A stretch of DNA of 64,000 nucleotides from Bacteroidetes bacterium GWF2_38_335 (GTDB taxonomy: Bacteria > Bacteroidota > Bacteroidia > Bacteroidales > GWF2-38-335), in contig MEOH01000019.1 of NCBI GenBank assembly GCA_001769535.1, forward strand, positions 1 to 64,000, read 5' to 3'. Every line of letters begins with the position of its first letter. Within the stretch, counting starts at the first letter, position 1. The position numbers and the translations under genes are program-made. This document shows positions 27,305 to 29,765 of the stretch, piece by piece. The notes under the pieces are model-generated. The model was not told the DNA's origin. It ran no database searches and worked only from the letters and a program-made list of their open reading frames with translations.

Positions 27305-27336
27305 CTTGTTAATATTGACTTATCTTATTACTTTTG
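27305..27336 (+). promoter_or_regulatory. Promoter of the dlt-like operon
   Basis: TACTTTTG at 27329-27336 matches TAnnTTTG, with CTTG at 27305-27308 (one base off TTTG) 20 bases upstream. It overlaps the TTG of the longest frame, which supports the ATG at 27352. Confidence 0.6.
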
Positions 27337-27351
27337 CTGCTTTTCATTCTT

Positions 27352-28557
27352 ATGCTGTTTAATAATTATCAGCTGTTTATCGAGATTATTGCTTTCCTCG
27401 CTGTTTATCGCACAGTTAGTCAGTTTATACGCATAGCTATTATCAGAAATCTGATCATTTTTGCTTCCAGCATTATTATTCTGCTCAATTTTTCAGGCGA
27501 ACACAGTCTGATCGTTCTCGGATTACTCAGCATCGTAGTGTTTTTTGCAGGTAAACTTTTACAGAAGAAGCGATATAGCCTCCTCCTTTTTATCTTTCTT
27601 TTCCTTGTAATCTTCCTATTTCTTATCCGAAATTACCTGACATTCAGATTACTCATCAATAATACCATGCTGGAGTTTTTGAGTGCTCCGGTTATTTCTG
27701 TCCAGAAACTGGGATTGTCCTACATTATTTTCAGATATGTCCACTGGCTTGTTGAATCTAAAAAGGGAAGCATAAATCGCTCTGATGTATTGAGTTTCCT
27801 GAATTATATATTCTTTTTTCCGAGTTACCTGGCCGGCCCCATTGATCAGTACAGAAATTTTCATTACTGGATAAGAAACCGCAGGAACAAATACTCATGG
27901 ACTTTGTTTTTTGCGGGCGTTTCAAGAATTTTTATCGGAGCTGTTAAAACAAAACTGATAGTTCCGTTTGTGATCGAATATGCTCTTGATTATTCTGTTC
28001 TTTTAACGGATTTTTCTCATTCTGGTGCCCTGATAATTAGTCTGCTGGCCTATTCCGCCTATATCTATTTTGATTTTTCGGGATACAGCGATATTGCCAT
28101 CGGAATGGCTTATCTTTTCGGCATCAAAACGCCTGAAAACTTTAACAATCCATATTTTTCCACAAACCTTTCTGACTTTTGGAAAAGATGGCACATCACT
28201 TTCTCCTTTTTTCTGAAGATTTATGTATTCAAGCCTGTAATTGACCTCATTAACCGGATCTTTAAAACAAAGAAAAGACTGCCTGTTTCAATTGCTGCCT
28301 ATATTATTACTTTCGTCATTTGCGGCATCTGGCACGGAGATACCATTAATTTTGTTTATTGGGGGTTGTGGCATGGATTGGGATTGGCGGTAAATAAAAT
28401 CTGGCTTACAAAAGTGAAGCCCGGATTAAAATTTTCAGAAACAAGGATGTATATGGTTCTGAGTATTATAATAACATTTGTTTTTGTTACTGTTGGCTGG
28501 TTTTTCTTTAATTATCAGCACGACAGTATTGTGAAAATAATGACTGAAATATTTTAA
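27352..28557 (+). CDS. DltB-like membrane-bound O-acyltransferase (MBOAT)
   Basis: 401 residues, about 11 membrane helices, cytoplasmic membrane. The invariant MBOAT histidines are present: 'WKRWH' (His281) and 'GIWHG' (His328), with His341 after. The wording 'GPIDQYRNF' and 'GIKTPENFN' is closer to DltB (GPID-x-YRRF; GIKTPENFN) than to AlgI (GPI-x-RYRDI; GFNFPENFN), and the length is that of DltB (~400) rather than AlgI (~500). In Gram-positives DltB moves D-alanyl groups from the carrier DltC across the membrane. Neither dltA nor dltC is in this window, so the acyl group is unknown. It is directly followed by a DltD-like gene with no gap. Start chosen at ATG 27352 for the promoter reason given there. 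Confidence 0.85.
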   Translation: MLFNNYQLFIEIIAFLAVYRTVSQFIRIAIIRNLIIFASSIIILLNFSGEHSLIVLGLLSIVVFFAGKLLQKKRYSLLLFIFLFLVIFLFLIRNYLTFRLLINNTMLEFLSAPVISVQKLGLSYIIFRYVHWLVESKKGSINRSDVLSFLNYIFFFPSYLAGPIDQYRNFHYWIRNRRNKYSWTLFFAGVSRIFIGAVKTKLIVPFVIEYALDYSVLLTDFSHSGALIISLLAYSAYIYFDFSGYSDIAIGMAYLFGIKTPENFNNPYFSTNLSDFWKRWHITFSFFLKIYVFKPVIDLINRIFKTKKRLPVSIAAYIITFVICGIWHGDTINFVYWGLWHGLGLAVNKIWLTKVKPGLKFSETRMYMVLSIIITFVFVTVGWFFFNYQHDSIVKIMTEIF

Positions 28558-29655
28558 ATGAGGGAATTTTATAAAACATCCTATCTGGCGAAAACAGGAA
28601 AATTCATCCTGGTGACAATTTTTTTGCTTTTGGTTGCAGGAAAGTTGCTTATTCCTGAATTTGAGGGGGGTATTGATAAACAGCCTTTTTCAGTGAAAGG
28701 TATCTGTATTAAATATGATGACAATCCTGCCGTTAGAGATTTTTTTAATGCAATCAGGTCAAATAATGGAGTTTTGGTTTTAGGCACTTCAGAAACTACT
28801 GAAGTTACCAACGGAAATTATTATGATTTTCTTAACAGTGATCATGCGATGAAAACCAAATTTTCTTTGTTGGCCGGGGCAGGCAGAACTTGTGGATTGT
28901 ATATCCCGTTATTTTTAAAACATGTTGATGAACTAAACGGACTAAAACTTATTTATTTTATTAACCCTGTTTATTGGCGGACTGATTTATGCAAGGTCAG
29001 TACGGCTTATTGGAACCGTTATAGCATTGTGAATCTTTGTAATTCGGTGTCGGGAGATGAAAATGCAAGATATTTTGGACCCGTGAGGGAATATGTCGAT
29101 AAACTGAATTTTTTAAGCATGGCCGGTTTTTCTGCTGAATATTATATCCGTAAGATTAGGGAAAGTTATTTTAATCATCTTAATTTTATAATTGACCCTG
29201 ATTTGTACAACGAGCAATTTGTTTATTACCCGGAATCTTCTTCCCTGAATAATTTTGAAAATTTCGGTAAGATTGACCTGAGGAACATTGATACGGTCTG
29301 GAATATAGATAAATCATTCAAAAATAAGGAATGGTTTAAATCCATTGATAAATCGGTAAATTACCGTTACGAAGAGCTGACCGCCTTTGTCAGATTGTGC
29401 AAAGATCTTAAAATAGATGCCACATTTATTGTCGGACCATACAACCAAAGGTTTATTGAGAAATATAGTCCGGGCGACCTGCCTGGCTATATCGAAGTCA
29501 CGGAAAATATTAAAAAACTACTCGATGGGGAAGGAGCGAGGTACATTGATGCCACCGATATTTCAAATGTGGCAGGGACATTCATTGATCATCAGCATCA
29601 TTCATCATACGGAGCATATCTCATTTACCTGAAAATCAAAGAGCAGTACCAATGA
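28558..29655 (+). CDS. DltD-like SGNH-fold membrane-anchored protein
   Basis: 365 residues: one N-terminal membrane helix (about 15-33), then an extracytoplasmic domain. The SGNH nucleophile block reads VLVLGTSETTEV with Ser78, and the last block reads 'FIDHQHHSSYGAY' with Asp344 and His347 near the C-terminus, as in the DltD/AlgJ type. In Gram-positives DltD completes transfer of D-alanine to teichoic acid. The protein is very diverged and was recognised mainly by block positions and context: it starts on the base after the MBOAT stop, and its own stop overlaps the next small ORF. The acceptor polymer here is unknown. Confidence 0.68.
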   Translation: MREFYKTSYLAKTGKFILVTIFLLLVAGKLLIPEFEGGIDKQPFSVKGICIKYDDNPAVRDFFNAIRSNNGVLVLGTSETTEVTNGNYYDFLNSDHAMKTKFSLLAGAGRTCGLYIPLFLKHVDELNGLKLIYFINPVYWRTDLCKVSTAYWNRYSIVNLCNSVSGDENARYFGPVREYVDKLNFLSMAGFSAEYYIRKIRESYFNHLNFIIDPDLYNEQFVYYPESSSLNNFENFGKIDLRNIDTVWNIDKSFKNKEWFKSIDKSVNYRYEELTAFVRLCKDLKIDATFIVGPYNQRFIEKYSPGDLPGYIEVTENIKKLLDGEGARYIDATDISNVAGTFIDHQHHSSYGAYLIYLKIKEQYQ

Positions 29656-29765
29656 AGAAAAAAATAATCAATATCATCATCAAAACTGCAATTGTTGCAT
29701 TACTGGTTTATTTGCTGGCCTGGACCGAAAGCGGGGATATTCAGTATTTGTATGCGGGGTTTTAG
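29652..29765 (+). CDS. 37-residue DltX-like microprotein
   Basis: The reading frame ATG 29652 to TAG 29763-29765 overlaps the upstream stop by four bases (ATGA), a translational-coupling layout. The peptide has a basic start (MKKK), a single hydrophobic helix (about 5-24), a short polar linker and the C-terminal tail GDIQYLYAGF. Gram-positive DltX proteins are the same size and topology and end in a similar tail (from memory ...TFIYNEF, aromatic-x-Tyr-x-x-Phe); there the C-terminal region works with DltB, and the tyrosine has been reported to carry the acyl group. The match in size, topology, tail and context is good, but the peptide is too short for certainty. Confidence 0.65.
   Translation: MKKKIINIIIKTAIVALLVYLLAWTESGDIQYLYAGF

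Follow-up and report, generated by a model that had tools for sequence, protein, structure and literature searches.

The window analysed here is a stretch of 64,000 nucleotides from contig MEOH01000019.1 of Bacteroidetes bacterium GWF2_38_335, and it carries on its forward strand three tightly packed genes, hereafter the trio. The first (27352..28557), with its ATG at 27352 and its stop codon at 28555-28557, has 401 codons and encodes a DltB-like MBOAT protein of 401 residues that matches PF03062 with 90.8 bits. The second (28558..29655), for a predicted DltD-like SGNH acyltransferase, starts at 28558 and abuts the MBOAT stop in the same frame, running for 365 codons (365 residues). The third (29652..29765) has its ATG at 29652 within the SGNH stop codon TGA, as ATGA, and encodes a DltX-like membrane microprotein of 37 codons (37 residues) that ends QYLYAGF ahead of a stop at 29763-29765. 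An earlier reading made from the letters and their translations, here called the sequence-only reading, had recognised the MBOAT by its DltB wording, the SGNH protein by its zero gap and three residues, and the small gene by its coupling and its end. All of these features are present, with GPID at residues 162-165 and GIKTPENFN in the MBOAT and Ser78, Asp344 and His347 as candidate catalytic residues of the SGNH protein.

According to PMC12148441 (2025), the acyl group of the Dlt pathway moves from DltB to a tyrosine in the tail of DltX and on to DltD, and in PatA, where the MBOAT carries the same motif within its own chain, acetylation of the motif tyrosine was demonstrated. The tail hexapeptide of the microprotein, YLYAGF, is encoded at 29745..29762, and its Tyr34 (codon 29751-29753), which we propose to carry the acyl group, corresponds in its motif position to the shuttle tyrosine of DltX and PatA in that account. 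We consider it probable that the trio is a Dlt-like acyl-tyrosine relay, an envelope acylation machine fed without DltA and DltC and most likely by acyl-coenzyme A (acyl-CoA).

Conservation of the trio and its microprotein

Scanning public genomes with an SGNH alignment gave 29 related loci, and every record title is of the Bacteroidota, covering ruminant and other gut Bacteroidales, Flavobacteriales, records labelled Chitinophaga and unplaced metagenome-assembled genomes. The sources named in the titles of trio records are ruminants, horse faeces, reindeer and a marine set. Profile searches for the SGNH gene were positive for 7 of the 395 class genomes and for 7 of the 393 order genomes, both sevens including the genome of the window, and the class sample added six further loci, three of them far diverged. 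A search of 395 genomes of the phylum with the single SGNH sequence matched only the window's own genome, which suggests that the system is rare or diverged. Together the 29 loci of the scan, the six of the class and the window make 35 distinct loci once L119 is left uncounted, its microprotein being identical to that of L082. When the neighbouring genes of 30 loci (the 29 and the window) were clustered, the MBOAT and the SGNH protein were present in 29, the remaining record (L106) starting inside the SGNH gene, and the order of the trio and its adjoining or overlapping gene ends were conserved across loci. Among the 14 largest clusters no further gene was found at a fixed place beyond close relatives. 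Besides frames lying on the strand opposite the MBOAT and SGNH genes, the only other of these clusters to link distant loci consists of ATPase-like open reading frames (ORFs), at differing places in 5 of the 30, which we take for a common domain. No prior report of the trio was found in the literature searched, most subscription journals lying outside its coverage.

An overlapping small ORF with the tail tyrosine follows the SGNH gene in 35 of 35 Bacteroidota loci, including all six added by the class sample; conservation of this frame behind MBOAT-SGNH pairs had been fixed beforehand as one half of the test of the sequence-only reading. In the last 28 codons, past the overlap, 30 copies (435 pairs) gave proportions of synonymous (pS) and nonsynonymous (pN) differences of 0.78 and 0.38 in frame, compared with pS/pN of 0.51/0.41 (weaker) and 0.34/0.48 (reversed) in the shifted frames. 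As a control we used 343 ORFs of at least 200 codons from the 29 loci and the window, counting small ORFs of 25-80 codons with the end.[LIVMFYW]Y..F. A qualifying ORF lay behind 22 of 28 SGNH genes and behind 3 of 315 other ORFs, one of these three being a frame that overlies an SGNH gene. Five of the six SGNH genes that failed the rule do have the small gene, missed through the start-codon rule, and the sixth (L103) is without the final Phe. The conservation, the in-frame purifying pattern and this control rule out a chance ORF.

The sequence-only reading had described the tail as aromatic-x-Tyr-x-x-Phe. Its tyrosine is kept in 35 of 35 loci and its last Phe in 34, but the first aromatic did not hold as a rule: the position two before the tyrosine is Tyr in 15 loci, Phe in one, Cys in 17 and Thr in two, hence aromatic in 16 of 35. 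At L103 (6618-6840) the SGNH gene is open and the tail that follows is degenerate, reading CRYTSC; decay or an assembly error may account for this and for the broken MBOAT frame of L104. In each of the 20 copies tested, a strongly hydrophobic stretch of 17 residues is flanked by positive charge on its N side and negative charge on its C side, the pattern expected of a tail outside the membrane. The microprotein might instead be merely structural, holding the MBOAT and the SGNH protein together, with no acyl-tyrosine and with the tail tyrosine kept for packing. The variable first aromatic and the Phe lost at L103 fit such a role, whereas the presence of the tyrosine at every locus, an MBOAT without a fused tail, and the demonstration for PatA, in PMC12148441, that the corresponding tyrosine carries the acyl group all argue against it, and we regard it as very unlikely.

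Kinship with DltX itself is less clear. The window's microprotein scored above the cut-off of no family model. The Pfam DltX model (PF12459) gave no match to it at E<=10, and on seven other copies from group B, the trio MBOATs of the tree below, it reached at best 18.2 bits, with a cut-off of 25; two Firmicutes DltX used as controls scored 72.6 and 57.6 bits. The model also fails on three dltX from Bacteroidales dlt operons, which indicates that it is narrow. A profile comparison of the microprotein set with a DltX set matched 12 tail residues with a probability of 51%, and so does not establish common descent of the whole microprotein. In this respect the sequence-only reading needs correction.

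Relationships of the SGNH protein and the MBOAT

The SGNH protein matches the DltD family PF04914 with 32.3 bits (cut-off 22.7), over residues 260-352 only, and the NCBIfam DltD model with 26.1 bits, below the equivalog cut-off of 150. The SGNH protein of a diverged relative, L122, scores 21.7 bits, slightly below the PF04914 cut-off. A six-row SGNH sequence profile found a DltD structure with an E-value of only 0.15, so the comparison of folds adds much. The predicted model (mean predicted local distance difference test, pLDDT, 90.6), with an N-terminal helix at residues 2-31, is nearest among solved structures to DltD, with a Z score of 20.8 over 302 residues and a root-mean-square deviation (rmsd) of 4.0. 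SGNH esterases follow with Z of about 12 (12.1 at best) over 175-182 residues and rmsd of about 3, and PatB gave Z 10.4 over 170 residues with rmsd 3.7. Ser78, Asp344 and His347 are invariant in 23 of 23 SGNH rows.

A serine, an aspartate and a histidine of this kind also occur in SGNH esterases, and the weaker fold matches (Z about 10-12) extend to many esterases. Both points count for a different arrangement, in which the SGNH protein acts as a deacylating hydrolase while the MBOAT and the microprotein acylate something else, with no relay between them. We think this the least probable of the alternatives and highly improbable in itself, given a DltD match far above the esterases and a constant gene order with adjoining or overlapping ends.

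The MBOAT scores 216.7 bits with the NCBIfam DltB model TIGR04091, below its equivalog cut-off of 375. Its His281 and His328 fall at the positions of DltB His289 and His336, and both histidines are present in 27 of 27 group-B rows. The predicted model (pLDDT 88.8) is nearest among solved structures to DltB (Z 37.3 over 379 residues, rmsd 2.9), followed by human PORCN (Z 26.9 over 357 residues, rmsd 3.3). No PatA or AlgI structure is in the lists of fold matches, so that DltB as the nearest fold leaves PatA or AlgI possible.

The genome of the window has six MBOATs, and the other five are long and end FIYFQF or FIYFRF. Such a tail, F-x-Y-x-x-F/Y, stands on the C-terminus of all 53 long MBOATs gathered among the matches listed; its last place is Tyr in three, and one has an extra residue behind the motif. 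The MBOAT of the trio has no tail and ends TEIF. Set against the tailed long MBOATs, this suggests that the separate microprotein fills the gap.

Trees were built from MBOATs that have a locus, quickly from 93 rows and carefully from 84. L004, L007, L047, L048, L054, L055, L056, L067, L083, L084 and L090 were left out of the 93 as repeats and L104 for its broken MBOAT frame; nine more near-copies or partial rows were removed to give the 84, and the MBOATs of L085 and L106 are truncated by contig ends. In the 84-row tree, which is unrooted, 51 long MBOATs form one side of a branch with support 100/99. The tail-less side holds group B (21 rows, 100/99) together with DltB, where DltB sequences from Firmicutes and from the dlt operons of Bacteroidales group at 100/98. 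The origin of the trio's MBOAT from a fused type by a loss of the tail independent of DltB is not favoured, the long rows all lying on one side of that branch in the unrooted tree.

In two diverged relatives, L124 (762-2666) and L125 (4024-5466), the trio MBOAT is extended at its C-terminus to totals of 635 and 481 residues; the extended proteins have no Pfam match at E<=0.01 besides MBOAT, and the microprotein is still separate.

The acyl donor

The sequence-only reading had called for a search for dltA and dltC elsewhere in the genome. None was found for dltA: in the genome of the window (96.7% complete) the best DltA score was 49.5 bits, with a cut-off of 559.85, and as a yardstick a Bacteroidales DltA scores 420 bits. 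For dltC, no carrier lies beside the window's trio, and four ORFs with carrier domains lie on other contigs, none identified as DltC. One of them (G000, contig C18, L075) adjoins an AMP-ligase-like ORF, with a glycosyltransferase-like ORF seen nearby by eye. Among 13 trio genomes, a search for DltA-like ligases at E<=1e-30 came up empty in seven, that of the window among them. Three of the 13, namely G821, G937 and G1002 (the last a single contig), each have just one carrier domain in the whole genome, which presumably serves fatty-acid synthesis, and a carrier domain lies beside the trio in one of the 13, G201, which is not the window's genome.

PMC11035591 lists the DltC contacts and the tunnel-gating residues of Streptococcus thermophilus DltB, with Lys312 pairing with DltC. 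At that position 27 of 27 group-B rows have Pro, Phe, Ser, Ile, Leu or Glu, compared with Lys or Arg in 12 of 12 DltB rows. Trp occupies the active-site position of Tyr345 in all 27 group-B rows, as it does in 50 of 53 long rows. The position of Arg317 does not discriminate, since it is kept in 26 of 27 group-B rows and is Pro in all nine Bacteroidales DltB among the matches listed. The hydrophobic contacts to DltC vary among DltB rows too. Judged from these sequences, a dedicated carrier is unlikely to be the donor for the trio, because the lysine is lost from all 27 MBOATs and three trio genomes have one carrier domain; acyl-CoA would be the donor with moderate weight, because the DltC contact is lost and several genomes have no ligase or dedicated carrier.

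Downstream of the trio at L085 (1998-4729, genome G201) lie an adenylation-carrier didomain protein, with 228 bits to DltA, and then an LpxL-family acyltransferase, an arrangement that we take to be like AlmE-AlmF-AlmG. Its near relative L084 has no adenylation-carrier or LpxL-family genes at that place.

The trio might thus be a true Dlt-type system fed by a carrier, with an amino acid or acyl group on a carrier loaded by an unlinked enzyme and the supply genes scattered. The tree, which places the MBOAT on the side of DltB, a cytoplasmic helix of DltB length, the four carrier-domain ORFs of the window's genome including the one beside an AMP-ligase ORF, the genes downstream at L085, and the presence of a ligase at E<=1e-30 in 6 of the 13 trio genomes are all on its side. 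It is opposed by the lost lysine, by the seven genomes without such a ligase, by the three with one carrier domain, by the rarity of a carrier beside the trio and by the lack of the L085 genes at L084; on balance we consider it unlikely, though less so than a structural microprotein or a hydrolase.

Several points weigh against the relay fed by acyl-CoA that we prefer, and part of them concern the relay itself. In 19 of 35 loci Cys or Thr stands in place of the first tail aromatic, the microprotein over its whole length is not recognisable as DltX, and only the last third of the SGNH protein matches the DltD family model. Others concern the donor. Four of the 13 trio genomes have a best ligase of 205-243 bits and two have a DltA-like ligase above 420 bits. 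The tunnel position of Met332 is Met in 12 of 12 DltB rows and Cys in 27 of 27 group-B rows, yet no more than 4 of 53 long rows have this Cys; the donor site therefore does not simply follow the fused type. The group-B MBOAT has the cytoplasmic helix of DltB length, without the Gly-Gly loop of 45 of the 53 long rows. Given these ligases and the adenylation-carrier protein at L085, a contrary lead, the donor may be carrier-bound, and it may also be the acyl-acyl carrier protein of fatty-acid synthesis. Position 332 weakens the argument on the donor, and the carrier counts strengthen it.

The probable relay and its known relatives

The view of a cell-surface acylation system taken by the sequence-only reading finds support in the conservation of the trio, in the DltB and DltD folds and in the lack of a detectable DltA. 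By analogy with the DltX and PatA work in PMC12148441, we infer the following relay. On the cytoplasmic side the MBOAT would load a small acyl group, with acyl-CoA as the most likely source, onto Tyr34 of the microprotein. A single helix would anchor the microprotein and leave its tail outside, and this tail would then swing to the SGNH protein, where Ser78 would accept the acyl group, and the SGNH protein would pass it to a hydroxyl outside the inner membrane, on what we infer to be an envelope glycan or lipid.

Like the Dlt pathway, the trio combines a tail-less MBOAT, an SGNH protein of the DltD fold and a separate one-helix microprotein ending x-x-Tyr-x-x-Phe. It differs in that no dltA accompanies it, no carrier lies beside it in 12 of 13 genomes, its genes are in the order MBOAT-SGNH-microprotein, the lysine that contacts DltC is lost and the microprotein is unmatched by Pfam DltX. 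Teichoic acids are, to our knowledge, not expected in Bacteroidota. By analogy, we read the trio as working like DltB-DltX-DltD but stop short of classing it as a Dlt pathway, since it lacks DltA and a linked DltC and its microprotein falls outside the DltX family model.

PatA-PatB and AlgI-type fused pairs, as PMC12148441 describes them, share with the trio an MBOAT and SGNH pair without carrier genes, and the fused MBOATs, our long rows, share the Trp at the position of DltB Tyr345. Unlike in the trio, their tail is on the C-terminus of the MBOAT, behind two extra membrane helices; the trio's tail is a separate protein, and its MBOAT is shorter at that end by about 75 residues or more.

The dlt operons of Bacteroidales (L037-L045) are found in the same bacterial order and also have a tail-less MBOAT, DltD and a microprotein, and one genome (G027) holds both the trio and a dlt operon. 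Their gene order is dltD-dltX-dltB-dltA in at least 9 genomes, with dltX seen in eight and L044 cut. In contrast to the trio, all nine among the matches listed have dltA adjoining dltB, and all seven inspected for it (L150-L156) have a carrier gene ahead of dltD. Their microprotein tail is F(V/I)YQ(Q/K)F in eight, and in their DltB, in 9 of 9, Asn replaces the MBOAT His336 and Ser replaces Tyr345 with His289 kept, again among the matches listed.

A further MBOAT, on the Leptolinea plasmid AP024711 (L111, 2798-4397), resembles that of the trio in being tail-less, in being accompanied by a separate ORF of 47 residues with the tail LWIYQGF and in having no dltA among its annotated neighbours. Unlike the trio it is from Chloroflexota, its microprotein is upstream, no SGNH neighbour was seen and it has Lys at the 312 position. 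It lies beside group B in the tree with weak support (85/67) and a long branch. From its sequence, L111 is possibly a second split relay, in Chloroflexota.

It is conceivable, and we put it forward tentatively as somewhat less than an even chance, that the separate relay microprotein is older than carrier-fed D-alanylation and independent of it, with an acyl-CoA-fed lineage in Bacteroidota, and perhaps Chloroflexota, from which Dlt is derived. If so, MBOATs of this lineage deliver their acyl group to a DltX-like tail on a separate protein and to a transferase of the DltD fold, and Dlt would be a branch that swapped acyl-CoA for DltA and DltC. PMC12148441 states that non-Dlt MBOAT pathways have no DltX-like microprotein, and the trio lineage would be a counter-example. 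The trio would also separate the split relay from the carrier-protein donor, two properties that are confounded in Dlt, and its comparison with Dlt and PatA would reveal the residues that choose acyl-CoA or a carrier. It would further add an envelope modification to Bacteroidota.

With regard to the mobility of the trio, a search with the SGNH protein found no copies on plasmids. An empty-site test in a genome of the same genus (G001) gave no match for one flank at E<=1e-40, and for the other a match of 45% identity on one contig. A mobile insertion was not favoured, the GC content of the trio (0.362) being not unusual next to the 0.385 (standard deviation 0.025) of equal-sized stretches of the window. 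A weak candidate promoter, TTG-N20-TACTTTTG, lies on the same strand at 27306..27336. It is a pattern match only, near chance frequency, with 11 matches in the window and 6.5 (standard deviation 2.6) in shuffled sequence, and its consensus is one that we take to be that of Bacteroidota.

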